This document shows positions 19,648-52,862 of a stretch of DNA of 61,703 nucleotides, in pieces. The translations under genes were made by a program, and so were the position numbers. Origin of the DNA: Ruminococcus sp. (lineage in GTDB: Bacteria; Bacillota; Clostridia; Oscillospirales; Ruminococcaceae); assembly GCA_024403995.1 (NCBI GenBank), contig JAKSQT010000007.1, forward strand, positions 1-61,703, read 5' to 3'. The first letter of the stretch is position 1; each line of letters opens with the position of its first letter. The notes below the pieces were generated by a model that had not been told where the DNA came from, did not search any database, and saw nothing but the letters and a program-made list of their open reading frames with translations.

Positions 19648-20082
19648 TTACAGATATTCTTTCAAACTTTCCAGATACGCATTTTCTCGTTTGAGGATCT
19701 CTTGTCCTGTCTGTTGTGTATCCTTTGGAATGTCAGAATGCGCGTGTATAGTTTGCAGGATGGTAATGATACCCATGTTTGTTCCTTCCACCATCAGTTT
19801 TGCGAGATTCTCGTCGCTTTCGTCCACCAACGTGTGAAGCTTGATTCCCATATCGCTGTAAGCTTTCAGCCATGCAGGATTGTCAGTCGGCTGGTCGCCG
19901 GACGCAGAAAATGTGTGCAGCAATTCGACCTGCTGTTCTCGATATGCTGCAAGCTGTTTCTCTAACAAAGCACGGAAATTCGGATGTTTTGTATGCTTTA
20001 GCACCGCTTCAATCGCCTGTGCGCCCATTGTCGCATTCTGGTAGTAGACATTCATGACTGCTTTTGTTTCCTCATTCATCAT
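19648..20082 (-). CDS. Small helical-bundle protein, unknown function
   Basis: 144 residues starting MMNEETKAVM; GGGAG upstream fixes the start near 20079-20082. It is almost entirely amphipathic helix (AVMNVYYQNATMGAQAIEAV, then RALLEKQLAAYREQQ, then HTLVDESDENLAKLMVEG, then a long C-terminal helix ending LESLKEYL). This suggests a four-helix bundle of the DUF2383/ferritin-like kind, but no metal-ligand pattern is evident. It diverges from the PdaA-like gene. A CATACTA box with a poor GTGTA 17 bp upstream (20138-20166, minus strand) hints at forespore expression, weakly. Confidence 0.6.
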   Translation of the reverse strand: MMNEETKAVMNVYYQNATMGAQAIEAVLKHTKHPNFRALLEKQLAAYREQQVELLHTFSASGDQPTDNPAWLKAYSDMGIKLHTLVDESDENLAKLMVEGTNMGIITILQTIHAHSDIPKDTQQTGQEILKRENAYLESLKEYL

Positions 20083-20227: not shown

Positions 20228-20256
20228 GTATAGCGTTTCGATACACGGACATACTG
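20228..20256 (+). promoter_or_regulatory. Candidate SigF/SigG promoter of the PdaA-like gene
   Basis: GTATA (20228-20232), 14 bp, then GGACATACTG (20247-20256), ending 41 bp before the ATG. The same three-part layout occurs before spoIIR (34541-34569). It fits the forespore sigma pattern (GyATA / GGnnAnAnT) and no sigma-A promoter is evident. Confidence 0.6.
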
Positions 20257-20297
20257 TTTCTCAGCGGCTCTGCCGCAAAACGAAAGGAGGCATTTCT

Positions 20298-21026
20298 ATG
20301 AAACGACTCGTCAGCATTCTGCTTGGCGCGATCCTGAGTTGTACCCTGCTGCTGCCAATGAACGCGCTAGCCCTCGGATACGGTCAGGGCATTCAACGTG
20401 ATGCCGCAAACTGTCCGACAGGTGCCGTCGAATTTGAAGCACAATACGGACAATTCGGCGCATATGCCATGACACCCGACAAAAGCCGCATTATTCTGAC
20501 ATTCGACCAGGGCTACGAAAACGGCTATACCGCTCAGATTCTCGATACGCTCAAAGAAAAGAACGTATCTGCTGTTTTCTTTCTGACCGGTGACTATGCA
20601 AAACGGGAATCCGATCTGGTCGAACGAATGATCGCAGAGGGACACACGCTTGGTAATCACGGCATGACACACGCGGCGATCCCGACACTCTCCCCTGCAC
20701 AGCTTGAAGATGAAGTCATGTCCCTCCACAAATACGTGCTGGACACGTATGGTTACGAAATGCAGTATTTCCGTCCGCCATGCGGTGAATATGACGCGGC
20801 ATCGCTCGAACTGGTACAGGGACTCGGTTATCAGACCGTCTTTTGGAGTTATGCCTATGTGGACTGGAATCCCGATGCTCAGCCGCATCCGCAGTCTGCA
20901 CTCTTGGGATTGACAGATGCTGCACACGGCGGTGCGATCTATCTCCTGCACTCCGTATCCAAAACAAATGCGGAGATTCTTGGCAGCCTGATCGACAATC
21001 TGCGTGCAATAGGATATACTGTATAG
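20298..21026 (+). CDS. Polysaccharide deacetylase, PdaA-like (peptidoglycan muramic acid deacetylase)
   Basis: 242 residues from the ATG at 20298 (AAAGGAGG upstream), with a signal peptide to about residue 26 (NALA). The NodB domain has the first motif as TFDQGYENGY, typical of PdaA-like enzymes where the second Asp of TFDDG is replaced, then GNHGMTH with the two metal His, RPPCGEYD, and LLHSVS at the end. PdaA removes acetyl groups from muramic acid so that cortex muramic-delta-lactam can form. The candidate forespore promoter fits that role; an alternative is a general wall or chitooligosaccharide deacetylase. Confidence 0.82.
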   Translation: MKRLVSILLGAILSCTLLLPMNALALGYGQGIQRDAANCPTGAVEFEAQYGQFGAYAMTPDKSRIILTFDQGYENGYTAQILDTLKEKNVSAVFFLTGDYAKRESDLVERMIAEGHTLGNHGMTHAAIPTLSPAQLEDEVMSLHKYVLDTYGYEMQYFRPPCGEYDAASLELVQGLGYQTVFWSYAYVDWNPDAQPHPQSALLGLTDAAHGGAIYLLHSVSKTNAEILGSLIDNLRAIGYTV

Positions 21027-33847: not shown

Positions 33848-34498
33848 TTATATTGCGTCCTCTTTCTCTGTGTGAATCTCTTCCGTCAATTTCTCAAAGG
33901 CATAGTTTCGAATGCCGCGCACGATCTCTACGCATTTGAACCGTACCGCGTATTTCGACGGATTGGCAGTCATATCACATACCCCTGCGCTGAATTCTTC
34001 CGACATTTCTGACACCGCATTGCATCCTGCCGCCGGGACACAAAGCGACGGATACATCACGCACCACCAGTTATGTCCTTCTGCCGCACCGATTTCCACG
34101 CGCAGTGCATGATATATCCCGGCAGGGAGTGTCACATCCTCATATGTCCTTACAGGAAATTCCGTATCACAGAGCAGAACACACACATTCTCACTGCTGC
34201 CGTATGCACGCAGGGTTTCTTCCGCAATCGCTTTGATTTCAGGAAGATGCTGCTGTAACTGTATTTCTGCACCGGCTGCATTTTCAGCATTGTACATCCA
34301 TCTCTCCGACTGTGACAAAAGCGCATCCCGAACATGAAGTTTCAGCATCTGATCCGCGTCCGAATCGGAATTTGCCAGTATATGCAGCCGCAGTACACCG
34401 TTCTCCAGTTCTGTCAGCCGCTGCTCCGTCACAGCGATGCTTGCCGCTCCGACAATCAGCAGCACCATCATCAGTATCCCAAGCATTTTTCGTTTCAT
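33848..34498 (-). CDS. spoIIR: Stage II sporulation protein R
   Basis: 216 residues from the ATG at 34498 (AGGAGG upstream). One N-terminal membrane or signal segment (about 6-24), then the family signature LRLHILANSDSDADQMLKL and VRDALL, and the C-terminal block VRTYEDVTLPAGIYHALRVEIG and WWCVMYPSLC. SpoIIR is made in the forespore under SigF and signals across the septum to activate SpoIIGA, which processes pro-SigE. Its presence shows sporulation ancestry. The promoter candidate upstream fits SigF control. Confidence 0.93.
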   Translation of the reverse strand: MKRKMLGILMMVLLIVGAASIAVTEQRLTELENGVLRLHILANSDSDADQMLKLHVRDALLSQSERWMYNAENAAGAEIQLQQHLPEIKAIAEETLRAYGSSENVCVLLCDTEFPVRTYEDVTLPAGIYHALRVEIGAAEGHNWWCVMYPSLCVPAAGCNAVSEMSEEFSAGVCDMTANPSKYAVRFKCVEIVRGIRNYAFEKLTEEIHTEKEDAI

Positions 34499-34540
34499 AT
34501 CATTTCCTCCTGCTTTCTTTACAGTATTTGGATCAACCCT

Positions 34541-34569
34541 CAGTATGTCCGCAATCTGCAACCTTATAC
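34541..34569 (-). promoter_or_regulatory. Candidate SigF promoter of spoIIR
   Basis: Minus-strand GTATA (34569-34565), 14-bp spacer, GGACATACTG (34550-34541), 42 bp before the start codon. The same boxes and spacing occur before the PdaA-like gene. Confidence 0.65.
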
Positions 34570-34670: not shown

Positions 34671-34739
34671 AGATGACGGTGAAATCCACCAAATGAGAAT
34701 ACTGTCCGAAAATGACAGTTCTAATAGGAGGAAATTATA

Positions 34740-35603
34740 ATGCTGGTATCTGCAAAAGAAATGCTGAACAAGGCTAGAGACGGCAAGTACGCTGTCGGTC
34801 AGTTCAACATCAACAATCTCGAATGGACCAAGGCGATCCTGCAAACGGCTCAGGAGCTCAACTCCCCTGTTATCCTCGGTGTTTCCGAAGGCGCAGGCAA
34901 GTATATGTGCGGCTACACCACCGTTGTCGGCATGGTCAAGGGCATGATCGAGGAACTCGGTATCACCGTTCCTGTTGCACTTCACCTCGACCACGGTACC
35001 TTCGAAGGTGCAAAAGCTTGCATCAACGCAGGTTTCTCGTCCATCATGTTCGACGGCTCTCACTACCCGATCGAAGAAAACATCGCAAAGACCACCGCTC
35101 TCGTCAACACCTGCGACGTTCTCGGCATCTCCCTTGAAGCTGAAGTCGGCGCTATCGGCGGCGAAGAAGACGGTGTCATCGGTAAGGGCGAATGTGCAGA
35201 TCCTGATGAGTGCAAGGCTATCGCTGATCTCGGCGTAACCATGCTCGCTGCCGGTATCGGCAATATTCACGGTAAATATCCCGAAAACTGGGAAGGCCTT
35301 AGCTTCGAGACCCTCGCTGCTGTTAAGGAAAAGGTCGGCGATATGCCCCTCGTTCTCCACGGCGGTACAGGCATCCCTGCTGACATGATCAAGAAAGCAA
35401 TCTCCCTCGGCGTTGCAAAGATCAACGTCAACACCGAATGCCAGCTCGCTTTCGCTGCTGAAACCAGAAAGTATGTCGAAGCAGGCAAGGATCTCCAGGG
35501 CAAGGGCTTCGATCCCAGAAAGCTCCTCGCTCCCGGCGTTGAGGCTATCAAAGCTACCGTTAAGGAAAAGATGGAACTGTTCGGTTCTGTCGGCAAAGCT
35601 TAA
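34740..35603 (+). CDS. fba: Class II fructose-bisphosphate aldolase
   Basis: 287 residues, start after AGGAGG (34725-34731). Zinc and catalytic residues are visible: LHLDHG (D84, H85), the Glu-rich loop EAEVGAIGG, GNIHGKYP and LVLHGGTGIP, and NVNTE near the phosphate site. It cleaves fructose 1,6-bisphosphate to two trioses in glycolysis. Codon use is strongly biased to C-ending codons, as in very highly expressed genes. Monocistronic, with its own terminator. Confidence 0.97.
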   Translation: MLVSAKEMLNKARDGKYAVGQFNINNLEWTKAILQTAQELNSPVILGVSEGAGKYMCGYTTVVGMVKGMIEELGITVPVALHLDHGTFEGAKACINAGFSSIMFDGSHYPIEENIAKTTALVNTCDVLGISLEAEVGAIGGEEDGVIGKGECADPDECKAIADLGVTMLAAGIGNIHGKYPENWEGLSFETLAAVKEKVGDMPLVLHGGTGIPADMIKKAISLGVAKINVNTECQLAFAAETRKYVEAGKDLQGKGFDPRKLLAPGVEAIKATVKEKMELFGSVGKA

Positions 35604-36494: not shown

Positions 36495-37502
36495 TTACTT
36501 TCCCTTAGAATTTTTCTGCCAATTCCAAGAGTCTCTGCACATATCTTGCAGGGACTTTTCTGCTTTCCAGCCGAGAAGTTCTTCTGCTTTCTGTGGGTTT
36601 GCATAGCAAGTTGCAATGTCACCTGCACGACGCGGTGCGATCTCGTAGGGAATGGTCAGCTGATTGGCTTCTTCGAAGGCATGGACAATATCCAGAACGC
36701 TGTATCCGATACCTGTGCCGAGGTTGATGACCTCACAGCCCGTGTGCTGTTTGCTGTAATCGTATGCGGCGACATGACCTTTCGCAAGGTCTACCACATG
36801 AATATAGTCGCGGACACCCGTACCGTCAGGTGTCGGGTAATCGTTGCCGAATACGGACAGATGGTCACGGATTCCTGCCGCCACCTGCGTGATATAAGGC
36901 ATCAGGTTGTTGGGGATGCCGTTTGGCTTTTCGCCAATCAAGCCTGATTCATGTGCGCCGATGGGGTTGAAGTATCGCAGTAAGACGATAGACAGCTCCT
37001 GATCAGCGGCAGTAGCGTCGCGCAAAATCTGTTCGTTCATCAGCTTTGTCCAGCCGTAAGGATTGGTGCAGCCGAGTTCGTCATTGTCCTCTGTGTACGG
37101 AACATTTTCAGATTTACTATATACGGTCGCCGAGGAACTGAATATCAGACGTTTACATCCAAATTCCTGCATAACTTCCAACAGCGACAGAGTCGTGTCG
37201 AGGTTGTTTCGGTAGTACATCAGCGGTTTTTGTACTGACTCCCCTACTGCCTTATATCCTGCAAAATGCACCACGGCATCAATCGTTTGCTCCGAGAAAA
37301 TTTTTCGGAGCATTTCTTTGTCGGTGACATCGCCCTGATAGAATGCGGGCGTCTTGCCTGTGATCGTTCCGATGCGTTCTGCAACGGATGCATCGCTGTT
37401 GAAGAGGTTGTCGATGATAACAACGTCATTGCCTTGATTTATCATTTCAACGGCGGTGTGCGAGCCGATAAAGCCCGTTCCGCCTGTCAGTAGAATGCTC
37501 AT
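36495..37502 (-). CDS. galE: UDP-glucose 4-epimerase
   Basis: 335 residues. Rossmann start LLTGGTGFIGSH, NAD contact IIDNLFNSD, catalytic Ser/Tyr/Lys in SSSATVY and NPYGWTK, and the substrate block RYFNPIGAHESG. It interconverts UDP-glucose and UDP-galactose (or the GlcNAc forms). It is the last gene of the polysaccharide operon and overlaps its neighbour by 4 bp, so it likely supplies galactose-type sugars for the polymer. In the 98 bp after its stop I see no terminator, only a 20-codon open frame (36406-36468). Confidence 0.96.
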   Translation of the reverse strand: MSILLTGGTGFIGSHTAVEMINQGNDVVIIDNLFNSDASVAERIGTITGKTPAFYQGDVTDKEMLRKIFSEQTIDAVVHFAGYKAVGESVQKPLMYYRNNLDTTLSLLEVMQEFGCKRLIFSSSATVYSKSENVPYTEDNDELGCTNPYGWTKLMNEQILRDATAADQELSIVLLRYFNPIGAHESGLIGEKPNGIPNNLMPYITQVAAGIRDHLSVFGNDYPTPDGTGVRDYIHVVDLAKGHVAAYDYSKQHTGCEVINLGTGIGYSVLDIVHAFEEANQLTIPYEIAPRRAGDIATCYANPQKAEELLGWKAEKSLQDMCRDSWNWQKNSKGK

Positions 37503-38674
37503 TGGGAGTTCTCCTTATCAAACAAATGAAACTCAGCATATATTGCCTTGCGTTTTTTCGCATTCGCAAGAGTATGTGCGCTGTCCAATTTCCGCTGGCC
37601 CGATTTGACCATTTTCAAGTAATCGCTAACCACACGAATACTACTTGTATTCTGTGCTTTCGCCTTTGCCCGAATGGTATGGAATACTTGAATGACGGGA
37701 GCACGTTTTGTTACGGTATGATCGCCACGATCAGAGATGTACTTGATCTGATTATATCGGTCATTGTCTTTGAACCCGAAGTTACCGCCTGACAGGATAT
37801 CTTCCATCAGTCCGACAAGCACCGATTCGTCCACCGTGCCAGCCCATTCGCGTTTGGGTATATGCAGATACCGCATAGATACCAGCGTGAGAATCTGCGC
37901 GAATCGCCACAAGCCGCATCGTTGCAGCTTGTCCTCGAAAATGGCGCGAAATTCATCATTTGAGAGACTGGATGCAAATACTGCCCAGTCGCACAAGTGT
38001 CGCAGTCCGATGCCCTCAGAGGTCAAATGAGAGGCTGTGTGGAGCAACAACACCAGTCCATGATGGAATGTGTCCGGAATTTTGATTGTTCCATTCTCCG
38101 TCTGATAGTCCACCGCCGTTTCGATAATGTCAGAGAGATATTCGTCTACGATGGCTTGCGCTTCGCCCTCCGGCACACCATTGATACTGCGGTGCATCTC
38201 CCAAACGGAGTTGCGGCGATGGAATCCCAGATGCTTGCCCTGTATTTCTTCGTCCTTTGCAGTAAAGCCGATTTCAGTCAGTAATTCTGTGGCAGAGTCC
38301 ATGTCTTTTTCGGCAAGCAGAAAATCCACATCGCCCAAGACACGCAGAGCAGGATTGGGATAGTAAGATGCAGATGCTACGCCTTTGAGGATGACATAAG
38401 GGATGTTTCGCTTCGCCAGAGTGTCATTCAGCTCACTATGCTCGTATGTGACATTCGTGTTGACCGAAATATAGTAACGGAAACGATTTTCCCATTCTTC
38501 CTTTTTCTCAGAAGGAATAGTGAGATCCAGCTCCGTAAATATCAGCGGAAAGACCGCCTGCGACATCGCTTCTTGATAGAGCTTGTACCAGTCGATATCT
38601 GTGATTAGGATTTCCTGTCGTTCAAAAAGCGAAGATGCCAGTAACGACAGAAGTATTTGGTGCTGTTTGTCCAA
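37499..38674 (-). CDS. Nucleotidyltransferase family protein (NTP_transf_5)
   Basis: 391 residues. The minimal nucleotidyltransferase pattern is visible: VILKGVASASYYPNPALRV followed by LGDVDFLL with the two metal Asp. A HxxN/HTASHLTSEG segment and a helical C-terminal region follow, as in the uncharacterised NTP_transf_5 family. Such genes are common in capsule and EPS clusters, but their substrate is unknown. It overlaps galE by 4 bp. Confidence 0.8.
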   Translation of the reverse strand: MDKQHQILLSLLASSLFERQEILITDIDWYKLYQEAMSQAVFPLIFTELDLTIPSEKKEEWENRFRYYISVNTNVTYEHSELNDTLAKRNIPYVILKGVASASYYPNPALRVLGDVDFLLAEKDMDSATELLTEIGFTAKDEEIQGKHLGFHRRNSVWEMHRSINGVPEGEAQAIVDEYLSDIIETAVDYQTENGTIKIPDTFHHGLVLLLHTASHLTSEGIGLRHLCDWAVFASSLSNDEFRAIFEDKLQRCGLWRFAQILTLVSMRYLHIPKREWAGTVDESVLVGLMEDILSGGNFGFKDNDRYNQIKYISDRGDHTVTKRAPVIQVFHTIRAKAKAQNTSSIRVVSDYLKMVKSGQRKLDSAHTLANAKKRKAIYAEFHLFDKENSQ

Positions 38675-38703
38675 AGGGCAACTTCCTTTCTGTGAGATAA
38701 TGT

Positions 38704-39243
38704 TTATGTGTTCTCGACTTTGCGTTTTTCTTTCCTTTTTCGGAGCCAGTTGCTAAGAATATAGGAGAGGGAGCCGATTGTGGCACCCAGCGTATTCATT
38801 ATAACATCATCGGTTTCGCAAGTGCCCAGTCGGAATATAAGTTGTATTGTTTCTATGATAAGTGAAAAAAATAAAGCCGAAAAAATTGTGATTCGAATTG
38901 GATGTTTTACTCTTTCAGGGAGTGCATAGGGAAGAAATAGACCATATGGGAAGAAAAGGAATGCATTCATGACATACATTCTGAATGATTCATTCGTGAA
39001 ATTTAAGCGAACAAATGGAATAAATGAAAATTGATATATATTGATACTAGTCCGTCCAATATTTGTAACCAATAGAATTGCACATACAGAAAATATATAT
39101 AAAGAAAGGGAAACTCTTCGAACGAACTTTGGATATACTGTTGAGAGCGTTGCAAACAACAAAAGAGAAAGAAGCATTACAAGAATAATAGTACTCAAGG
39201 AACTTGTATAAAGAATGTGCAATAGATGATTAAGAAATCTCAT
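38704..39243 (-). CDS. VanZ-like membrane protein
   Basis: 179 residues with about five membrane helices and a basic tail. The VanZ landmarks are present: N-A-F-L-F-F-P-Y-G-L (helix 3), IIETIQLIFRLGTCETDDVI and NTLGATIGSLSYIL. VanZ-like proteins confer low-level resistance to glycopeptides in some hosts, but most are of unknown role at the cell surface. It overlaps the flippase gene by 14 bp. Confidence 0.85.
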   Translation of the reverse strand: MRFLNHLLHILYTSSLSTIILVMLLSLLLFATLSTVYPKFVRRVSLSLYIFSVCAILLVTNIGRTSINIYQFSFIPFVRLNFTNESFRMYVMNAFLFFPYGLFLPYALPERVKHPIRITIFSALFFSLIIETIQLIFRLGTCETDDVIMNTLGATIGSLSYILSNWLRKRKEKRKVENT

Positions 39244-40744
39244 TTTTAATCACCTTGGATAGAATATATCTAAATGTGTACTTCGCAATTTGACGTTCGA
39301 ATAGAGAAGAAACAGTAAAGAATATAATAAGCGTAAGTATGGTATATGGAATACAGATTAAAAACAATTTTCCATACGAATCAATGTTGAAATTAAGAAA
39401 GTGGTTAAGGCATAATATGAGGAAAAATGTTGTTAAATTTACAACCCAACGCTTGTAAGTCATCCAAACAGATCTTTGCAGTATACGACGATTTGCATAT
39501 AAGATAATATCATTGGAACGATACAGAAGTGCTGCAATGGTGCCGATTAAGACCCCATATATTCCCCAAAACTGAACCGCTACAACTGAGGTAACCAAAT
39601 TAATAGCTGCTTCTGCGATTGCACGATTTTGTGTCAATTTAAAATGTCCTGCAAAATTGATAACCTGGTTAGCGGCACTTCGACCACAAGATAATAATGA
39701 AATGGAAATGAATAGAAGAGGCAATTTTTTGTCTATATAATTGATATCTGAAACGCCGGCCGTATATAGTCTCATAAATGGCAAGATAAAATAGTTTGCA
39801 ATTGAATACAAAGCAAACACCAAAGTCATATAATAAAGCTCAAAAGCATCATACATCTTCATAAATCTTTTTTTATCAATATGGAATGTTTGACCAAGAG
39901 AAAAAATGAAGCTTGAAGATACTGTGCTTAATGCAGTACTAATCATACCAAACAACATGGTGTACATAGAATAGATACTTACAATTTTCAGCCCACAAAA
40001 TATTGTTAGTGTAATTGAATCGGTATTATTATAGATAAGTCCACTAATTTGATGTACAAGAACATTTTTACTTTGCGAAATTGCTTTGAAGTCAGGCTGA
40101 ACAGACAAATCGATCCAAGAATAGTTTTTTTTGATATATCTTGTAATATATATCATTTGGATCATACTGATGAACATTGCGATGGCTTGAACAAAAACAA
40201 CATTGCAGCCAGATGCCATCAAGACTATTTTGGCAATGTTTTTAAATACATTGGTAAACATTCCAAGTGCAGTCTGAACATAATTCTTACCTTCTGCTTG
40301 GAGTAATAGGAAATATTTAGCCTGAAAGAAATAATTTATTACGCTTCCAATCCCATTAAATATGATTACCAGAACAACAGTAATAGTGGGAATATCTGTT
40401 GATACCACAAGTGGATATATAATAGAAAAAAGGAGAATGGCTAGAAGATACAAAAAACCGGTTCGATGATAATATCGATTTGTTGCAGCTAATACTGCAT
40501 TGGTGGCTGCTTTATTCTCTTTTCCGAGTGTTTTATACAAAGCCTGAATAGTTGCAGTACCTATTCCAGCTTCCAACAGAGCAACATAAGAGTATATTTG
40601 TGTTACAGAACTGAGAAGGCCATTTGTTTCAGAACCGTAACTGGTTAATATTAGTCTTGGTACAATAATACCAAGTATTATTGATAGTAACTCACTAGCA
40701 ATTCCTAAAACAAGATTTAATGAGATTTTGCGACCTGTATTCAT
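39230..40744 (-). CDS. Polysaccharide flippase (Wzx/MATE-like)
   Basis: 504 residues with 12-14 hydrophobic helices. It starts GRKISLNLVLGIASELLSIILG and has LILTSYGSETNGLLSSVTQIYSYVALLEAGIGTA, a pattern typical of oligosaccharide flippases in EPS clusters. It should move lipid-linked repeat units across the membrane before polymerisation by the EpsG-like protein. The base composition is AT-rich compared with the flanking chromosome. It overlaps the upstream glycosyltransferase by 4 bp. Confidence 0.9.
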   Translation of the reverse strand: MNTGRKISLNLVLGIASELLSIILGIIVPRLILTSYGSETNGLLSSVTQIYSYVALLEAGIGTATIQALYKTLGKENKAATNAVLAATNRYYHRTGFLYLLAILLFSIIYPLVVSTDIPTITVVLVIIFNGIGSVINYFFQAKYFLLLQAEGKNYVQTALGMFTNVFKNIAKIVLMASGCNVVFVQAIAMFISMIQMIYITRYIKKNYSWIDLSVQPDFKAISQSKNVLVHQISGLIYNNTDSITLTIFCGLKIVSIYSMYTMLFGMISTALSTVSSSFIFSLGQTFHIDKKRFMKMYDAFELYYMTLVFALYSIANYFILPFMRLYTAGVSDINYIDKKLPLLFISISLLSCGRSAANQVINFAGHFKLTQNRAIAEAAINLVTSVVAVQFWGIYGVLIGTIAALLYRSNDIILYANRRILQRSVWMTYKRWVVNLTTFFLILCLNHFLNFNIDSYGKLFLICIPYTILTLIIFFTVSSLFERQIAKYTFRYILSKVIKNEIS

Positions 40745-41736
40745 TCTCTGTCCTCATGTGTAATGATACTCCATATTCTGTAGAGGAGTATTGTGATATG
40801 TTTGGATCTATGCCCACAAAAATGCAAGATACGAATATGTTGTGGAAGAAGCGAGATGTAGTTCGTAGCATTTTGATAGAAAGGATCATCTAAAATACTC
40901 TGAATTTCAGTATAATTCTTTTCACCTGCAAATTCGCGACATAATATGGATACTTTATATAAGAATTCATAATAGAATTGATTATAATCAATTCTAAATT
41001 GATGAATTTGATTGTCTTCTAACAACTTTTGACGATTTTCAACCCATTGATGATATTGGTTCTTTTGCGGAGTATGCATGATACTATTTGTATTTTGACA
41101 ATAGTAGTATAGTTGTTGAGGGCTAAATGCAAAAGAATCTGCAGACCGTAACACTTCATAGTTAAACCATGCATCTTCAGCACGACGGAGCTTTTCATTG
41201 AAATGAAATGCATTCAAAGACAAAAAACTATTTTTATATATTTTATTACAGAGTGAATACAATCCGGCGTGTGATCTGGAATAGTAAAGATATAAGAGTT
41301 CTTTTTTAATTTCTGAATTTGAACAAAGATAGCTTCTATAATTTAAAGGGATTTTTTCGATTTTTCCAGAATTGAAAATACAATAACTACACATAGCAAC
41401 ATCAACATCATTGTTCTTTGCAAGATTGTAGAGCGTTTCAAACATTTCTTCATCGACATAATCGTCGGAATCAACAAAACCAATATATTCACCATTGGCT
41501 TTTGAGATGCCGATGTTTCGAGCGGCAGAAGGGCCTTCGTTTTCTTTATGAACCACTGTTATTCGTGAATCTGTATTGGCAAAATCATCGCATATTTTCC
41601 CACTATTATCAGTTGAACCGTCATCGATTGCAAGTATTTCAATATCAGATAGCGTCTGATTGGTGAGAGAAAGCAAACAACGTTCGATACAGTTTTCAAC
41701 ATTATAGACAGGAAGAATAATGGATACCCTTGGCAT
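40741..41736 (-). CDS. Glycosyltransferase family 2
   Basis: 331 residues. GT-A fold with SIILPVYNVENCIERCLLSL, AIDDGSTDNSG, GPSAARNIGISKANGEYIGFVDSDDYVDEEM (DxD metal site) near residue 90. The C-terminal part is helical and likely binds the acceptor. It transfers a sugar from a nucleotide donor to the lipid-linked repeat; linkage and sugar cannot be predicted. AT-rich. Confidence 0.93.
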   Translation of the reverse strand: MPRVSIILPVYNVENCIERCLLSLTNQTLSDIEILAIDDGSTDNSGKICDDFANTDSRITVVHKENEGPSAARNIGISKANGEYIGFVDSDDYVDEEMFETLYNLAKNNDVDVAMCSYCIFNSGKIEKIPLNYRSYLCSNSEIKKELLYLYYSRSHAGLYSLCNKIYKNSFLSLNAFHFNEKLRRAEDAWFNYEVLRSADSFAFSPQQLYYYCQNTNSIMHTPQKNQYHQWVENRQKLLEDNQIHQFRIDYNQFYYEFLYKVSILCREFAGEKNYTEIQSILDDPFYQNATNYISLLPQHIRILHFCGHRSKHITILLYRIWSIITHEDRE

Positions 41737-41762
41737 TGAATCACCTCTATATATACAAATTA

Positions 41763-42917
41763 TCAGTGATCAAAAAATTCATTTTTAATTCTATGCGCCC
41801 AAATTTTCCATTTAGGAATTCTGGGAACATATTTTTGAATTGTTTTTTCAAAATCTGAACTTGAACTAAAAAGCTCATGAAGGAATTGTTCTCTATTGGG
41901 ATTTCCAGCATCAGGTGCATTTAGTCTTTTATTATGAGATGAAGCATAGTTGAGGTCAATAGTCTGGACTTCAAGTTGATTTTTCATCATTTCCCAAAAA
42001 ATGTTTCCTTTATTAGTATTGATCAGTATCAGCGATGCTCCATGATGGGGATCAAATCCTTTTTTCTCACCGCCCCAATAATCACCTAGAGTAATGTCAG
42101 ATATACGATTGATTTGGGCATAGGGACATATATGACAAGAGGGACGGAAGAGATAGCCGTTGTCATAGCCACGTAAAAAACCACAAGTGTTGTAATCTAA
42201 GATCTTTGTTTTTTCTGACATATACTTTAGTTTTAAAAGTTTTGAATTCCAGTGACCATTTACCTTCTCTTTGTGTCGAAAAGAAATTTGAGATATCTTG
42301 TCATGTCTTCGATCGAAACATTTGAGACAATATTCTAGAATCTGGCCGTTAGAAACACCATGACAGATTAAATCAACGAGCAACAGATTATCATATTCAA
42401 CATTCAAAAAAGATTTTAATGCAGCACATTGGCAAGGCGTGCCTGTAAAAACAACTTGTTTTCCTTGCTTTAATTCAGTATTTATTTGACTAAATATAGA
42501 AAGTATATGACTTTGAATATATTTTGACTTACGAAAAGCTTCATATGCCCGAGGAGCAGCAACCCCTTTGTGAATGACTTGGCTTCGACCATTCCACGAA
42601 GCACCATATATCATAGTGCTTTCTGAACACGCTTTTGTGATAGCATAAAATGCACCACCGGAAGAACTTTCCAACAAGATACTATCAAATTTGCATATTG
42701 CTGCCCAAGCAGAAATGGGATAATTCAACTCATGTGTCGTATTGTGTATGCAGATTCTATTGCACAAACCGCAATTAGTACACTTTTCAGTGTCAATTTT
42801 GGGATACAGAAACCCTTCTTCATCAGATAGCATGGAAATAGCTTTTTGAGGACATTTTACAACACACAAACCACAACCGCAACATTCTGTTTTCTGCCCT
42901 GATTGTAAATATGCCAT
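41763..42917 (-). CDS. Coenzyme F420 hydrogenase/dehydrogenase beta-subunit family protein
   Basis: 384 residues. Two ferredoxin-type motifs lie at the N-terminus (CCGCGLCVVKCPQKAI and CTNCGLCNRIC), giving sites for two [4Fe-4S] clusters. Then comes the FrhB-like flavin domain (SSGGAFYAI, FTGTPCQCAALK, DLICHGVSNG, ICPYAQINRISDITLGDYWG). Members of this family in EPS clusters are flavoproteins that probably reduce or modify sugars; F420 itself is not expected in this lineage. The usual companion polysaccharide pyruvyltransferase is not seen here. Confidence 0.88.
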   Translation of the reverse strand: MAYLQSGQKTECCGCGLCVVKCPQKAISMLSDEEGFLYPKIDTEKCTNCGLCNRICIHNTTHELNYPISAWAAICKFDSILLESSSGGAFYAITKACSESTMIYGASWNGRSQVIHKGVAAPRAYEAFRKSKYIQSHILSIFSQINTELKQGKQVVFTGTPCQCAALKSFLNVEYDNLLLVDLICHGVSNGQILEYCLKCFDRRHDKISQISFRHKEKVNGHWNSKLLKLKYMSEKTKILDYNTCGFLRGYDNGYLFRPSCHICPYAQINRISDITLGDYWGGEKKGFDPHHGASLILINTNKGNIFWEMMKNQLEVQTIDLNYASSHNKRLNAPDAGNPNREQFLHELFSSSSDFEKTIQKYVPRIPKWKIWAHRIKNEFFDH

Positions 42918-42919
42918 TA

Positions 42920-43345
42920 TTAATTCACCGTAGAACGTATCACTTCCGCAAGGAGTGTTGATGAGGTACCTTCAGTATGTGGAAGGAAAATCATATCAAC
43001 TCCTGTTCCTTCAAATTGCGCTATGTACTTATTGTACAGCTCAGAGCCTTTCCAATCGTCACCATGAAAGAGCGCATCATAGTGCAATGTATCCCAGGCT
43101 TTTCGTTTGTCCATATCCGTTTGAGGTACTACCTGATTGACATATTTAATAGCTTCAACAATTGCTATTCTTTCCTCAAACGGTACTATTGGTTTTTTAT
43201 GTTTGTATGATTCAACCAATTCATCAGTACTTACGCCAACAATGAGAAAATCACAATATTGTTTCGCATTTTTCAAGATGTTTAGATGTCCTATATGAAA
43301 CAGATCGAAAACGCCACTTGTATATCCAATTTTATATCTTTTCAT
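42920..43345 (-). CDS. Cytidylyltransferase (glycerol-3-phosphate cytidylyltransferase-like)
   Basis: 141 residues from the ATG at 43345, 9 nt after GAGGAG. Nucleotidyltransferase signature: GYTSGVFDLFHIGHLNILKNA (HxGH) and, near the end, LPHTEGTSSTLL (the ISTS-like box). This is the TagD-type fold that makes CDP-glycerol or similar CDP-alcohols. It begins 14 bp inside the LicD gene, so the two products probably act on the same phospho-substituent. Confidence 0.88.
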   Translation of the reverse strand: MKRYKIGYTSGVFDLFHIGHLNILKNAKQYCDFLIVGVSTDELVESYKHKKPIVPFEERIAIVEAIKYVNQVVPQTDMDKRKAWDTLHYDALFHGDDWKGSELYNKYIAQFEGTGVDMIFLPHTEGTSSTLLAEVIRSTVN

Positions 43346-44177
43346 ATCCATTATCTCCTCGTTTATATTCACGCCACGAATGTTCTAAATCTACTATTGC
43401 GGAACCGTGGACAGTCTTTTGTTGCTCAATTGGAGGCAGTTGCATATAATTATCACCATATAAATGTATTAAAACTTCTTTCCAACCTGAAGGTGCGGGA
43501 AATTTCTGTGTTTCAAATTGTATGAATTCTGTTTCAGCAAATACAGAACGATCAATTACTTTTCTCATGTATTTTCGATTTGAAAAATACACTACATTTC
43601 GTGTTTGATAATGATTGTAATCCTGTATCTTTCTATCATATTTTTCTTTGAATGCTTGTTCTTTGAAAGGTGGTATAAATGAGATTAGGTATTGGAAAAC
43701 GCGCATTTTCCAAGATGCTTTAGGATTATGATACTGGAAACGATATTGGTATATAAAATTCATAGTATCAAAATATCGCGCCCTATTTTTTAATTTGCAG
43801 GATTGTTCGGGAGCGTTGTCAATAGGGAATATATCAATATTGATCCCTTCCATTGCTCCATCTTTTCGTCCTCCAGATATAAATGCTGTATTTCTATCAT
43901 GTAATTTCATCCAAGGGTTACTCGTATTTGGATCAGTATATATAGATTGCAGTTCAAATTTGTCTTTATTTAGATATTCAAGACATGCTTGTGGGAATCT
44001 ATTATAATCCTTTCTCATCATTACAATATCTATATCATCATCCCAAGGAATAAAGCCGTTGTGTCTTACAGCACCTAGAAGGGTGCCAGCATAGATGAAA
44101 TATTTTAAATTTGCTGCTTTGCATACCCGATCAATTTCAACGAGTATATCAAAACATTTTTGTTGTGTTTCGTTCAT
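43332..44177 (-). CDS. LicD family phosphotransferase
   Basis: 281 residues. LicD signature: YFIYAGTLLGAVRHNGFIPWDDDIDIVM, with the paired Asp residues, then LQSIYTDPNTSNPWMKLHDRNT. LicD proteins transfer phosphocholine, phosphoribitol or phosphoglycerol from CDP donors to surface glycans. The adjacent CTP-dependent enzyme suggests a CDP-alcohol donor, so the polymer is likely decorated with a phospho-alcohol (inference). Confidence 0.9.
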   Translation of the reverse strand: MNETQQKCFDILVEIDRVCKAANLKYFIYAGTLLGAVRHNGFIPWDDDIDIVMMRKDYNRFPQACLEYLNKDKFELQSIYTDPNTSNPWMKLHDRNTAFISGGRKDGAMEGINIDIFPIDNAPEQSCKLKNRARYFDTMNFIYQYRFQYHNPKASWKMRVFQYLISFIPPFKEQAFKEKYDRKIQDYNHYQTRNVVYFSNRKYMRKVIDRSVFAETEFIQFETQKFPAPSGWKEVLIHLYGDNYMQLPPIEQQKTVHGSAIVDLEHSWREYKRGDNGYEKI

Positions 44178-44186
44178 TTAAGCCTC

Positions 44187-44735
44187 CTAGGCAATAAATC
44201 CACAAGTTGAACTTAATTTTTCTCGCATTTCCTTTTTCTTTTCATCAGATACATTTTGGCGAGTAGTGTATTCTTCTCCAAAACAAGGAACAGTATCTAT
44301 TAAGGCTTTATTCTTATTTATAAATTCCTCAATGGAAGTTATTTTTTTTGCTGGCGAACCAGCATATACAAATCCGCTTTCCAAGTCACGAGTTACTGTT
44401 GAATTAGCACCAACAATTACATTGTCACCAATATGTACGTTCGGTAACACAACACTATCTGCACCGATAAAAACATTGTTGCCAATCGTCACTTTACCAA
44501 TCTTGGCATATCCTAATAGCTGTTTTGTACTTGCATCATGTGCCAAAATATGAACTCTCGGAGCAAGAGTAACATTATCTCCTATTTCAATCAGCCAACA
44601 GTGTGCAGGATCAATAATGACTCCAATCAACCTATGGAAATTACTGCCCACTTTAAGTCCCATTTTTAATAACTTCTCGGTAGTGTACTCTCCACGAAGG
44701 CGATAGACGATTTCTTTCAGCAATTGCCGTATCAT
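44187..44735 (-). CDS. Hexapeptide-repeat acetyltransferase
   Basis: 182 residues. After a helical N-terminus the left-handed beta-helix repeats are clear: IEIGDNVTLAPRVHILAHD, IGKVTIGNNVFIGADSVV, NVHIGDNVIVGANSTVTRD, ending YAGSPAKKI. This is the MAT/CAT type that uses acetyl-CoA to O-acetylate a sugar. It overlaps the next glycosyltransferase by 4 bp and probably modifies the repeat unit. Confidence 0.9.
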   Translation of the reverse strand: MIRQLLKEIVYRLRGEYTTEKLLKMGLKVGSNFHRLIGVIIDPAHCWLIEIGDNVTLAPRVHILAHDASTKQLLGYAKIGKVTIGNNVFIGADSVVLPNVHIGDNVIVGANSTVTRDLESGFVYAGSPAKKITSIEEFINKNKALIDTVPCFGEEYTTRQNVSDEKKKEMREKLSSTCGFIA

Positions 44736-45943
44736 TCTGAATGCTCCTTTTCTAATAAATCGTATATCTTTTCAAGCGTTTCATGGCTTAAATAATCTCT
44801 CTGATATGTATTTTCAATCAGAGTATTTTGTAATTGCGTATCTGATAGAACTCTGCAAATCCCTTGTGCGCACTCATCATTGTCCATTGGAACGATAATC
44901 CCATCGAATCCATCTTCAAGTTGACTACTAGAAGTTGGATAACTGGTAATGATTACAGGTTTGTGAAGAAGTTGCGCTTCAAGAACAGACACACATTTTC
45001 CTTCATAGCGACTGGGTTGCACATATATGTCGCACGCTTTGATATATGGATAAGGATTCTCTTTTTTACCAAGCATAATTACGTGATCCTGCATATCTGT
45101 TGCAGCGATTTTGTCTTTGATAAATTGTTCATCCCCACCATATCCGATGATGTACCATTTGACATCAATCCCAGAGGATCGGATGATGCGACAGATATCT
45201 GGAATGTTGTCAAAGTTTTTGGCTTGGCAAAAACGACCGATAGACAACAATTTTACTGTTGATTGTGATGGGAATTCCATCTGAACGTTATTAGCATCAG
45301 CTAGAGAATAAAGATATCGAATGGGTATTATATTTGGAAGAAGTTTAACTTTCGCTTCAAGTTCAGGGAATACTTGTAAAAAGCTATCGGTTACATTATC
45401 TGAAATAGAAGCAATGCAGTCATATGCATCCCACATTTCCAGCTGAGATTGTTGATCTACCTGAACAATTGAATAATCAGTGTGAATCCAAGCGATTTTT
45501 CTATGTGCTTTTACCTTATTGGCCACATAATAATGAGGTGTTAAAAAACTAATTGCTAGGTCATATTGCTTTTCTGAAATTTGTGGCATAGCTGACATGG
45601 TATATTTGTGGCTATAATCGAGTGAAATATCATTTTCTCCTTGAATATTCAGTTCATCAACTCGTTTTCTTGCTTTCATTTTACCGTTGATGCGCCCGAG
45701 TGCAACACGAAATTGTCTTTTTCCAAAAGTTTGTATTATTGGAATAGCCATCGAAGCGTAGTGCGGTTCTTCCGGTAACAGATTGATATTAGATGGAATA
45801 TACTTCATAAGTTCACCTTGATGGCGCATCAAAAATAAATCCACCTCATATTTTGTTGTATCAATCGTTTCCAGTAAACCAAGCAATGCTTTTTCGGCAC
45901 CGCCGATTTCCATTGCATGGGAAAAAATCAGAATCTTTTTCAT
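44732..45943 (-). CDS. Glycosyltransferase family 4
   Basis: 403 residues, GT-B fold. N-terminal Rossmann start ILIFSHAMEIGGAEKALLGLLE, second-domain strand KLLSIGRFCQAKNFDNIPDI and the donor-site block DIYVQPSRYEGKCVSVLEAQ with the conserved E-x7-E spacing. It retains anomeric stereochemistry by family. Donor and acceptor unknown. AT-rich. Confidence 0.93.
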   Translation of the reverse strand: MKKILIFSHAMEIGGAEKALLGLLETIDTTKYEVDLFLMRHQGELMKYIPSNINLLPEEPHYASMAIPIIQTFGKRQFRVALGRINGKMKARKRVDELNIQGENDISLDYSHKYTMSAMPQISEKQYDLAISFLTPHYYVANKVKAHRKIAWIHTDYSIVQVDQQSQLEMWDAYDCIASISDNVTDSFLQVFPELEAKVKLLPNIIPIRYLYSLADANNVQMEFPSQSTVKLLSIGRFCQAKNFDNIPDICRIIRSSGIDVKWYIIGYGGDEQFIKDKIAATDMQDHVIMLGKKENPYPYIKACDIYVQPSRYEGKCVSVLEAQLLHKPVIITSYPTSSSQLEDGFDGIIVPMDNDECAQGICRVLSDTQLQNTLIENTYQRDYLSHETLEKIYDLLEKEHSE

Positions 45944-45954
45944 TATTCATTTCC

Positions 45955-46974
45955 TTATATGGAGGAGACAATCTTTGCAATCGGCTTTTGAATGGTCGAA
46001 AGAACCATTGAAATTGGGATGGTGATTGCAAGCATAAGAAGAAAGATAAAAGCAGGATATCTGGCACAGTATACTAAATCCACATATAAAACAGAATAGA
46101 AAAACATATGTGTCAGCCAGATATTTGTTGAATGTTTTCCAATAAGGAAAAATATTTTTTCAAGAAACAAGGGCTTTTTTGATAGCTGAAACATCGTAAT
46201 GATAATCAAGCCGGTAAATGGTGCAACAATCAAACTAGGGACGATTAAGGTGTGTCCGATTAGGATTGCAATAAACATAATTCCGAAGATACCACGTTTG
46301 AACCAAGGATTCAGCTTGTTCAAGAAAGTTCCAACGACTGTAAAGTACCGATACTTGAAACATAAAGCGCCAATCACGTATTCGAACCAAGTGACTCCAA
46401 ATGGTCCAATTTTATCAAGGAAAAGATTTCCTGTATTGACTCTGAAACGCAAAAAATGACATAGTACGTAAATAACCCCACCAATACCAATCAAAAGGAT
46501 AGGATTGGTTTCCTTTATAATTTTCATCATAAGTGGTGAAATAAGAACAAGGATAGTGTATGCGTACATATACCACCATGCACCATTATAAGAATTTGAC
46601 AGCATGAAAATGTTTAACAGCAGTTTTGAAAGGCTGCCTGGCATAAAATCACTATGTCCAGATATTACGCTGACAATTGAAAATACTAGAATAATCAGCC
46701 AGAAATTACAGAGCAGAATAAGTAAACTTTTCAGTCGTTTTCGATAGAACGAAGAATCATCAGATAATTTCATATGAGCATAACCTGAACAAAATGCAAA
46801 ACCCATGACACAAAAATCCGACATCTGCGCTAAATAAAAGCTGAGCGGTTTTCCAAAGATAAAAATTAAAGGCGTAAATAATCCTTCATAAGACTTATCT
46901 AATAAATGCAAGCAAAGCATAGCTAGAACAGATAAGCCTTGTAACATCTTTGAATCGTTTTTTGAGAGTTCCAT
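45955..46974 (-). CDS. Acyltransferase family 3 membrane protein
   Basis: 339 residues with about ten membrane helices. It starts ELSKNDSKMLQGLSVLAMLCLHL, as in membrane acyltransferases where a conserved His follows the first helix; AFCSGYAHMK and WWYMYAYTILVLISPLM are further landmarks. Such proteins O-acetylate or succinylate surface glycans from the cytoplasmic acyl-CoA pool. It is one of two in this operon. Confidence 0.85.
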   Translation of the reverse strand: MELSKNDSKMLQGLSVLAMLCLHLLDKSYEGLFTPLIFIFGKPLSFYLAQMSDFCVMGFAFCSGYAHMKLSDDSSFYRKRLKSLLILLCNFWLIILVFSIVSVISGHSDFMPGSLSKLLLNIFMLSNSYNGAWWYMYAYTILVLISPLMMKIIKETNPILLIGIGGVIYVLCHFLRFRVNTGNLFLDKIGPFGVTWFEYVIGALCFKYRYFTVVGTFLNKLNPWFKRGIFGIMFIAILIGHTLIVPSLIVAPFTGLIIITMFQLSKKPLFLEKIFFLIGKHSTNIWLTHMFFYSVLYVDLVYCARYPAFIFLLMLAITIPISMVLSTIQKPIAKIVSSI

Positions 46975-46975
46975 A

Positions 46976-47692
46976 TTAGTCTTTCCCTTTTATTTTGGAA
47001 AGGAAATCGTTTCCAAACAATCTATGCAATGGTCGCGCAAGTTTACTACGAATGATACTTTTCTTGCTAAGCCAGCTTTTACCATAGTGATTGATAGAAT
47101 AAGTGTTTGCGGTTTTAGACAGGATACCTGTCGCATCGTCCAGAGGGTTGAAGTAATCAATCGGAAATACTATGACATTGTCTTTTAAATTCTGTTCTTT
47201 GCCATTTTTGACAAGGCCGTATTGAACCAATGTTTCGGTATTCAGAATAGGACAACCAATGAGTTGAAATGACCCATCAGGATTTTGAGTTAATGTACTA
47301 TATCTTTCCATCATGGCTTCAATAACAGGATGATTGGCAACTGCACCAAAACCAAGTCCCGTGTTGACGAATTCAGAGTTTTCAAATCCGAAATAAGCAT
47401 CATTATCGAGTAAACCATTTGGTGACTTAATCAGTTCAACATCAGTATCGAAGTATATACCGCCGTGTTGATGTATGAGAAGAAGCCGAACATAATCAGT
47501 CAGAAATGCCCACTTTCTATTTTCATAGCAATACCGAGTGTATTCGTTGTAATTGACATCGAAATTATCCTCATTCCATTCGATAATTTCATAATCAGGG
47601 CAATACTTTCTCCAGCTGGCAATGCATTTCTGAGCAAGCTTCGGTTTTTCACCTCTGCCAAACCAGCAGTAATGGATTTTCTTTGGAATCAT
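46976..47692 (-). CDS. Glycosyltransferase family 32
   Basis: 238 residues from the ATG at 47692, with AAAGGA upstream; the stop of the previous gene overlaps as ATGA. The GT32 start IPKKIHYCWFGRGEKPKLAQKC and the metal-binding motif HQHGGIYFDTDVELIKSP are unmistakable, followed by GFENSEFVNTGLGFGA. It adds a hexose, often galactose or mannose, by retaining chemistry. Confidence 0.93.
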   Translation of the reverse strand: MIPKKIHYCWFGRGEKPKLAQKCIASWRKYCPDYEIIEWNEDNFDVNYNEYTRYCYENRKWAFLTDYVRLLLIHQHGGIYFDTDVELIKSPNGLLDNDAYFGFENSEFVNTGLGFGAVANHPVIEAMMERYSTLTQNPDGSFQLIGCPILNTETLVQYGLVKNGKEQNLKDNVIVFPIDYFNPLDDATGILSKTANTYSINHYGKSWLSKKSIIRSKLARPLHRLFGNDFLSKIKGKD

Positions 47693-48660
47693 ATATGTAT
47701 CCTTTCGGTAATGATTTTTGAAAACCGTTGCATGACTGTTGCAATACATATTGTTAGTATGAAAATAATGCAACAACCAAGTATCCAATTTTCTGTAATA
47801 TCAAAAATGCGAAATGGTCCAACGCAAAACATATAATGATATAAGTATATTTCGAAGCTAATTGAACTCAGGTAGTTTACTATTCGACCTGCAGTTTTAT
47901 TTTGAAACAAGAACGCAAATATATACAAAAGCGCAAACGAGGTAAGAGTCTGTGTATAGCCTACAGCAATTCGGTCGTACAAAATACTCCCATCAAAGTA
48001 ATAGCGTGCTATCAATCTAATTGAGCACATCGAAATCATCATAATAAAAGAAAAACAAGCATATTTTCGCGTGATAGGAATTTTGGAAATGTTTTGGCCA
48101 AGAATAAAAGCAATTCCATACCAGCAAACCAATGAGAAGATAACAAACACAAAAGGCTGTGGAAAGATTGCTAATAGTATCGGAATTACAGAGAGAATGA
48201 TTACAAAACAAAAAGGCTTTGAGGATCTGGATGAGAGATAACTCAATAATGGAGTGATGAGATAACAAATTAAGAGTGGAGTAATAAACCATGTGTGATC
48301 TCCGCCGCGAATTCCTACATTTGAACCTTGTAATCCGAAGATAAACCATAGCCAGTTGGTAGAAATACGAATTCGACATATCAAATGAATCAGAAATAGA
48401 ATTCCAACAAATAATTCATATGGGATAAAGATGCGTAAAACTCGTTTTAAATACCAGTGAAGCGGATTTTCATGTATGTTCTTTTGTATGCCAAAGAGAA
48501 CACCTGATAGAATAATGAACATTTCGACGCCGATACTAAAGAACTGTGACGACATTTTCAAAAGTGGGTATGGGCATTCAGATGTAAAGTGGCATAACAG
48601 AATGAAAAGAGTGCCCGTGACACGAAAAAACGTAAAATATTCCTTGTGCTCAGTCCTCAT
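47689..48660 (-). CDS. Acyltransferase family 3 membrane protein (second copy)
   Basis: 323 residues with about nine membrane helices. It starts HKEYFTFFRVTGTLFILLCHFTSEC, with the conserved His after helix 1, then FFSIGVEMFIILSGVLFG. It is not a close copy of the acyltransferase at 45955-46974, so two separate acyl decorations are likely. It overlaps the genes on both sides by 4 bp. Confidence 0.88.
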   Translation of the reverse strand: MRTEHKEYFTFFRVTGTLFILLCHFTSECPYPLLKMSSQFFSIGVEMFIILSGVLFGIQKNIHENPLHWYLKRVLRIFIPYELFVGILFLIHLICRIRISTNWLWFIFGLQGSNVGIRGGDHTWFITPLLICYLITPLLSYLSSRSSKPFCFVIILSVIPILLAIFPQPFVFVIFSLVCWYGIAFILGQNISKIPITRKYACFSFIMMISMCSIRLIARYYFDGSILYDRIAVGYTQTLTSFALLYIFAFLFQNKTAGRIVNYLSSISFEIYLYHYMFCVGPFRIFDITENWILGCCIIFILTICIATVMQRFSKIITERIHI

Positions 48661-49544
48661 AACGATGCAACCTTCTGTCTAATATATATCGTTAATGCTA
48701 TACCAAACGGAATCGCAAGAACTGTAAGAAACTTTTTGGGAGATTCTTTTATAAAATGCTTGTTCTTACTCAAAATGCTGCTAGACACATAATGAATGCA
48801 GTCAATAAAATTGCGTTTTCTTGACTTTATATATTTCATATTCTCTTTCCGAACAAAAGCGAATCCTTTAGGATTACGAAGATACTGACGAAACATATTC
48901 ATGGATGAACCGTCAGCTTGATATTCAACATTACATAGAATATCATTTGTTGTAATCATTTGATATTGCTGATCGCATAGTTGATATTTCCAGCCAAGCG
49001 AAACGTATTTCTCGCCTTCAAATACTGGATAAGGCGGTAACGATTTCATTATGTCAGTACGGTACACAAGTTTTTTATCTCCCCTGCCGCCGGACTCGTA
49101 GAATCCTTGAAGAGTAGTATATTTCATATCTTTCGGAAATGAAGTTCCGATGACCTTTCCACTTGACATATCAGCATCTAAGCCGATAATGCCGGCATAC
49201 TTGTCGCTTTTTTTGTCTTTCCATAACTGAAGAATTTTTGATACCGCACCTTCTGCAAGCGCATCATCTGAATCGATGCATACATTCAATTCTGTATCAA
49301 TATTCTCATAGGCAGTGTTATGGGCGGTATGCATTCCACCGTTTTCCTTGTAGATATATCGAATTTCAAAGCCATTATCCAGTTGCTGCCATTCTCTTAC
49401 TAACTCGGCAGTCTTGTCTGACGATCCGTCATCAACGATCAACCAAACAAAATCTTTACAATTCTGCGCAAGCAACGATTGATAGGTTCTTGGTAAAGTA
49501 TGGGCGCGATTGTATGCGGGGGTAAAAATAGTCAGCAATTTCAA
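48657..49544 (-). CDS. Glycosyltransferase family 2
   Basis: 295 residues if it starts with TTG at 49544, which has GGGAGG 7 nt upstream and overlaps the previous stop as TTGA, the same coupling as elsewhere in the operon; an ATG at 49559 adds five residues. GT-A signature: TIFTPAYNRAHTLPRTYQSL, WLIVDDGSSDKT, CIDSDDALAEGA (DxD). The C-terminus has a basic segment and a hydrophobic helix that could anchor it to the membrane. Confidence 0.92.
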   Translation of the reverse strand: MKLLTIFTPAYNRAHTLPRTYQSLLAQNCKDFVWLIVDDGSSDKTAELVREWQQLDNGFEIRYIYKENGGMHTAHNTAYENIDTELNVCIDSDDALAEGAVSKILQLWKDKKSDKYAGIIGLDADMSSGKVIGTSFPKDMKYTTLQGFYESGGRGDKKLVYRTDIMKSLPPYPVFEGEKYVSLGWKYQLCDQQYQMITTNDILCNVEYQADGSSMNMFRQYLRNPKGFAFVRKENMKYIKSRKRNFIDCIHYVSSSILSKNKHFIKESPKKFLTVLAIPFGIALTIYIRQKVASL

Positions 49545-50659: not shown

Positions 50660-50674
50660 TTTTTCCTCACAAGA

Positions 50675-51790: not shown

Positions 51791-51796
51791 GAAATC

Positions 51797-52849: not shown

Positions 52850-52862
52850 TGCAAATCCTCTC

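Follow-up and report, generated by a model that had tools for sequence, protein, structure and literature searches.

Two sites in the window (the whole stretch of 61,703 nucleotides that was analysed), one upstream of pdaA and the other upstream of spoIIR on the opposite strand, are predicted from their sequence to be forespore RNA polymerase promoters read by sigma-F and/or sigma-G, with a probability of about 0.9. The sites are real and conserved, and the element is of a known kind. We propose that sigma-F would transcribe spoIIR once asymmetric septation is done, and that sigma-G, possibly with early help from sigma-F, would later transcribe pdaA, whose product would lead to the muramic delta-lactam found in the cortex of the spore. 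The two sites would be alike because sigma-F and sigma-G read near-identical sequences and because a 14-nt spacing is usual in this family. We infer the activity of the sites, their transcription start sites and the pairing of each site with a sigma factor, and we take the roles of both proteins from known homologues. The analysis adds a family-wide promoter model, corrections to the interpretation of the spacing and of the origin of the contig, and a set of leader structures.

Putative promoter sites upstream of pdaA and spoIIR

The features of the two loci are as follows.
20228-20256, + strand: putative pdaA promoter site GTATA-N14-GGACATACTG, ending 41 nt 5' of the ATG at 20298
20228..20232, + strand: putative pdaA -35 element GTATA (pattern match and spacing peak at orthologues)
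20247..20256, + strand: putative pdaA -10 element GGACATACTG (pattern match and conservation at orthologues)
20283..20290, + strand: Shine-Dalgarno AAAGGAGG of pdaA (sequence)
20298..21026, + strand: pdaA, PdaA-type polysaccharide (muramic delta-lactam) deacetylase, 242 aa (profile and structure matches)
33848..34498, - strand: spoIIR, stage II sporulation protein R, 216 aa (PF09551, E 2.9e-45)
34506..34511, - strand: Shine-Dalgarno AGGAGG of spoIIR (sequence)
34569-34541, - strand: putative spoIIR promoter site GTATA-N14-GGACATACTG, ending 42 nt 5' of the ATG at 34498
34565..34569, - strand: putative spoIIR -35 element GTATA (GNATA kept 5' of spoIIR orthologues)
34541..34550, - strand: putative spoIIR -10 element GGACATACTG (pattern match and conservation at orthologues)

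The sequences of the sites and the identities of the two genes are established directly. SpoIIR scored 156.5 bits with TIGR02837, above the curated cut-off of 151.9. For the PdaA-like protein, TIGR02884 was the best of eight models at 217.7 bits, which is below its curated cut-off of 298, and the closest solved chains were 2j13 (named polysaccharide deacetylase), followed by 1w1a, 1w17, and 1ny1 (named PdaA), with E values of 4e-46 to 5e-45 for these four top chains. The segment FDQGYENGYT of the window protein aligned to FDNGYENGYT of 2j13, and the first motif FDxGYENG is a hallmark of PdaA.

The original prediction had placed identical boxes with a 14-bp spacer 41 bp before pdaA and 42 bp before spoIIR, and this description is exact: the two sites have 15 boxed bases in common, both with N14. 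Their spacers are identical at only 5/14 positions and thus the shared boxes do not look like a copied element. Forespore -10 elements follow the consensus GGnnAnAnT or CATnnTA, and read in the sigma-F register both sites consist of a GNATA-type -35 element with a -10 element within the 14-16 nt of forespore promoters (GTATA-N14-GGACATACT). The pattern GTATAN{13,16}GGNCATACT has these two matches in the window and none in each of 100 dinucleotide shuffles. These are also the only two matches in the 2,582,066-base assembly, with none for the reversed control. When the fixed N14 pattern was relaxed to ≤3 mismatches, the whole assembly yielded 788 matches versus 989 for the reversed control, which is no signal. 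The four 1-mismatch matches in the assembly all lie within open frames of 317 to 619 codons from stop to stop, and inspection of these together with five of the 2-mismatch matches found none with a recognisable promoter placement. A genome-wide scan had been proposed as a check on a forespore regulon; the scan returned only the two known sites and neither supports nor refutes such a regulon, given the narrow strict pattern and a contig that is probably foreign to the bin that contains it.

Conservation of the sites at orthologous genes

Conservation at orthologues is stronger evidence for the sites than the rarity of the pattern. Upstream regions of spoIIR were drawn from 30 loci (36/40 genomes with a match), the stretch L117, at least 80 named loci, and 26 loci (26/28 genomes), giving 137 sequences with overlaps, which were reduced to 85 at proteins <70% identical and then, once the window and an upstream of less than 90 nt had been removed, to 83. 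A GNATA-N16-18-CAWW site was present ≤90 nt from the start in 55/83 of these orthologues versus 15/696 control upstreams, taken from other genes of the named loci; 50 rounds of shuffling gave a mean of 2.7%. This pattern was picked after the upstreams had been seen; therefore, spacings from 11 to 19 nt were scanned with one fixed -10 form. Among the 83 orthologues (window left out), 27 sites were found at 14 nt and 32 at 15 nt, with ≤2 at any other spacing, and no orthologue had both a 14-nt and a 15-nt site. A looser -10 form gave the same two peaks, with 21 at 14 nt, 24 at 15 nt, and ≤4 elsewhere.

The corresponding scan for pdaA employed NNATA-N14-NNNYATAMTR and 48 family orthologues, with redundancy kept and the window left out; 20/48 had the site at 14 nt, while no other spacing from 11 to 19 nt yielded more than 4. 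At the level of a fixed motif, [GT]NATA-N16-18-CATAMT was present upstream of 8/40 pdaA orthologues (proteins <85% identical) versus 1/693 control upstreams. The exact motif tested is missing from 28/83 spoIIR and 32/40 pdaA orthologues, in some of which the script-chosen start codon may be wrong. Because inspection of the upstreams preceded the choice of the -10 forms of both genes, more reliance can be placed on the comparison between spacings. Among the three closest pdaA genes, all from genus g124, a clear site (GTATA-N17-CATCCTA) is present in G333 only.

Genes for small acid-soluble proteins (SASP, ssp) matched in 12/12 genomes, and 9 of the 12 upstreams were readable (L346, L347, and L348 were not found). 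T[GC]ATA-N17-CATA[AC]TA is present in 4/9 of those read (L337, L338, L344, and L345), and NATA-N17-TATAMTA can be recognised by eye in a further three (L339, L340, and L343); in L341 and L342 the motif was not found in the 110 nt read. Counted to CATACT, the spacing of the window sites is 17 nt, like that of the relatives' pdaA and ssp sites.

Overall, the conservation at orthologues provides strong, independent sequence evidence for forespore-type promoters, and this footprinting across spoIIR and pdaA orthologues bears out the proposal that sigma-F/sigma-G-type promoters precede both genes. Vegetative promoters of the sigma-A type, or matches that arose by chance, are very improbable explanations of the sites. 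CATACT does resemble a -10 hexamer and the loose 3-mismatch pattern has no genome-wide enrichment, but a sigma-70 consensus scan recovers neither site, the strict pattern was absent from all shuffles, and spacing peaks at orthologues are not expected by chance. Forespore-type promoters remain the preferred reading. The predominant anaerobes of the gut were for a long time mostly considered non-spore-forming, yet many have large sporulation gene sets, as described in PMC5814915. That divergent genera retain both the promoter sequence and its spacing suggests selection on forespore regulation in these bacteria.

For regulon prediction in this family, the model would be GNATA-N14/15-nnnnAnAnT-like for spoIIR and NNATA-N14-NNNYATAMTA for pdaA and ssp. 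The sigma-F promoters of Bacillus subtilis and its sigG promoter (PsigG) have the same kind of boxes as the window sites. According to PMC5942855, sigma-F promoters of B. subtilis more often have 15 nt, and a 14-nt spacing makes PsigG less active. The window sites share the 14-nt spacing with PsigG (PMC5942855). Unlike in B. subtilis, where 15 nt is the more frequent spacing and 14 nt is suboptimal (PMC5942855), the family has 14 and 15 nt about equally often before spoIIR and a peak at 14 nt before pdaA, so that the 14-nt spacing is a family trait. The earlier view that 14 nt reflects a re-spacing within this lineage is not supported by these counts (27 at 14 nt and 32 at 15 nt for spoIIR, 20/48 at 14 nt for pdaA).

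Assignment to sigma-F or sigma-G

For Clostridioides difficile, spoIIR is counted among the sigma-F genes and pdaA among the sigma-G genes in PMC3789822, in which SASP genes are sigma-G targets, a downstream A is a mark of sigma-G, and an upstream G is a mark of sigma-F. As at the window sites, the -35 and -10 elements are similar for both C. difficile sigma factors, and their recognition is described as promiscuous in PMC7438776. The window pdaA site differs from the sigma-G promoters of C. difficile in lacking the downstream A mark; position 20256 is a G. With all sites placed in one common register, the base after the -10 element is A in 25/28 of the relatives' pdaA and ssp sites and in 6/59 spoIIR sites, while the first base of the -10 element is G in 46/59 spoIIR and 13/28 pdaA and ssp sites. 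At both positions, both window sites have G.

These two bases are the basis for an alternative in which the pdaA site of this lineage now serves as an early forespore promoter of the sigma-F type, so that, unlike in C. difficile, both genes would belong to one regulon. The G after the -10 element departs from the A of most pdaA and ssp sites, the G that opens it is typical of the spoIIR sites, and the marks given in PMC3789822 point in the same direction. However, two further pdaA sites (L228 and L230) also end in G, and the whole-site log-odds of the window pdaA site are ambiguous, with a sign that depends upon the training set: -2.07 (the sigma-G side) with all 59 spoIIR sites and +1.74 with the 19 CATA-type sites, changing to -3.95 and -0.08, respectively, when the first -35 base is omitted, this base having been preselected as G in the spoIIR training sites. 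The comparison is a lenient one, because a motif had served to select the 7 ssp sites (three of them by eye) as well as the 21 pdaA sites, and because pdaA was taken to be a sigma-G gene. We regard a switch of pdaA to sigma-F as improbable, and the sequence is ambiguous as to which of the two sigma factors reads either site. In the preferred reading, in which sigma-F and sigma-G both recognise such boxes, the single shared regulon of the original prediction does not follow from the likeness of the sites, as the C. difficile lists lead one to expect different regulators and nothing in the boxes tells these apart. Nor does the sequence show the regulon to be a working one.

Origin of the contig and scan for a forespore regulon

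The window (contig C147, positions 1-61703, of the bin G000) is probably a mis-binned contig of a relative of genus g124. Its V-ATPase A is 81-87% identical to those of three g124 genomes versus 52-56% in the nominal genus g1, and no g1-type V-ATPase A copy was seen in the G000 bin. PdaA is likewise closest to g124, at 67-70% identity versus ≤64% full-length in g1 (one 67-residue fragment in G017 is 67% identical). The bin holds a second spoIIR (C68, 42% identical) and a second pdaA (C112, 61%), and among the g1 genomes searched G000 is the only one with two strong PdaA hits. By tetranucleotide composition, the pieces from 9-36 kb are closer to g124.

The contig could instead be native to the G000 organism, with the second spoIIR and pdaA acquired by duplication or transfer, which we consider unlikely but deserving of some weight. 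In tetranucleotides, the pieces at 1-9, 36-54, and 54-61 kb resemble the sampled remainder of G000 more than g124, the G+C content of the window outside 37-54 kb (0.473) falls between that of G000 (0.426) and that of g124 (0.518), and the estimated contamination of the bin is 2. SpoIIR identity does not discriminate, being 45-50% in g124 and up to 54% in g1, with ≤51% to named genomes among the matches listed. Two spoIIR genes are also present in the g1 genomes G006 and G009, but the estimated contamination of these is 6 and 5. Overall, we favour the mis-binned contig. The stretch at about 37000-54000 has a G+C content of 0.373 compared to 0.473 in the rest of the window and is bordered by an epimerase/dehydratase gene (36495-37502); our guess is that this stretch is a transferred surface-polysaccharide cluster.

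As the contig is probably mis-binned, the sigma factors of the bin may belong to another cell and are better judged in g124. The G000 bin has 26 sigma region-2 matches, among them SigE, SigK, SigG, SigF, and SigH types, with the SigF, SigG, and SigH types scoring below the cut-offs of their named models. All three g124 genomes (3/3) have SigG-like matches over the SigBFG cut-off together with weaker SigF-like matches. When the g124 genome G333 was typed, SigG, SigE, and SigK were each over the cut-off of one of two models and SigF was below. A search for sigF and sigG had been suggested alongside the original prediction, and its outcome is divided: both types occur in the bin and in 3/3 g124 genomes, while the bin types and the g124 SigF are below cut-off.

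Across the three g124 genomes, GNATA-N17-CATAMT had 58 matches versus 28 for the reversed control. Thirty of these loci were fetched and 24 of them lie in an open frame of at least 158 codons, indicating that many of the scan matches are due to chance, although one of the 24 (L280) is so placed because spoIIR's own frame extends upstream. Promoter-like placements included spoIIR (L280), a GerA-family germination gene (L304), a DUF1540 gene (L294), and a DUF378 gene (L290). The g124 scan supports a forespore regulon, short of proof. The DUF1540 and DUF378 genes, both downstream of sigma-G-like matches, are candidate forespore genes.

Secondary structure in the pdaA and spoIIR leaders

It is possible, at somewhat less than even odds, that the forespore genes of Oscillospiraceae have an RNA layer over the promoter, composed of stems that form only in read-through RNA at spoIIR and of 5' hairpins at pdaA. 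At pdaA, a conserved hairpin would open the mRNAs; in the window it is 5 bp long:
20264-20276, + strand: hairpin GCGGC-TCT-GCCGC, 5 bp, in the pdaA leader, expected near the mRNA 5' end (start site placed about 7 nt after the -10 element)

A leader hairpin of at least 5 bp is present in 29/40 pdaA orthologues versus 103/693 control upstreams, and a GC-rich one reaching 6 bp or more in 22/40 versus 43/693. The arms of these hairpins vary yet still pair (TGCGGA..TCCGCA and pairing variants). A hairpin can also be seen by eye in two ssp leaders, L344 and L345.

At spoIIR, 13/84 leaders (window included) have a perfectly paired stem of 8 bp or more that reaches the Shine-Dalgarno and would occlude it, versus 7/693 controls. 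The leaders with such stems, of 8-13 bp and mostly with the 5' arm placed at the border of the sigma-F -10 element, are:
L059, L078, L184, L189, L195, L196, L198
L201, L213, L214, L215, L217, L268

Stems of at least 8 bp occur in 13/50 leaders with a co-directional upstream gene and in 0/32 with an opposed neighbour (P 0.0012; two of the 84 leaders are without a neighbour call), a P value to be read in light of a threshold picked after a first look and of related, non-independent lineages. At other settings the association was weaker, with P values of 0.038 at 7 bp, 0.11 at 6 bp, and 0.058 in a rank test. In one case (L189), the co-directional upstream gene is 846 nt distant. Among the 21 stems of at least 7 bp, there are 11 in which the 5' arm stops 1-6 nt short of the -10 element's end; it is farther upstream in 2 (L192 and L215), is unplaced in 4 (L059, L066, L195, and L212), and is downstream of the -10 element in 4 (L079, L146, L177, and L198), and these downstream cases speak against a role in read-through RNA.

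Where spoIIR follows a co-directional gene, the inverted repeat of some lineages would join the edge of the sigma-F -10 element to the Shine-Dalgarno. Such a stem might form in read-through RNA only, in which case transcripts from the forespore promoter would be the only ones to yield the signal that fires sigma-E. In B. subtilis, complementary sequences at sigG are proposed to block the translation of upstream read-through RNA, and the hairpin cannot form in RNA from sigG's own promoter, as reported in PMC5942855. The read-through logic of the spoIIR stems would be the same as that described for sigG in PMC5942855; unlike at sigG, the gene is spoIIR and the stems are found in relatives and are absent from the window. 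If the stems act in read-through RNA, this would be a parallel to the B. subtilis sigG safeguard at another key gene. Within the literature returned by our search, no report of such stems at spoIIR was found.

In the window itself, the best stem of the spoIIR leader is 3 bp and the upstream neighbour is divergent. The gene divergent from pdaA (19648-20082, - strand) has a weak DUF2383 match below cut-off. The gene divergent from spoIIR encodes a class II fructose-bisphosphate aldolase, and directly 5' of it is a sigma-A-like site, ATGACA-N18-TATAAT, which matches at 11/12 positions (34712-34741, + strand).
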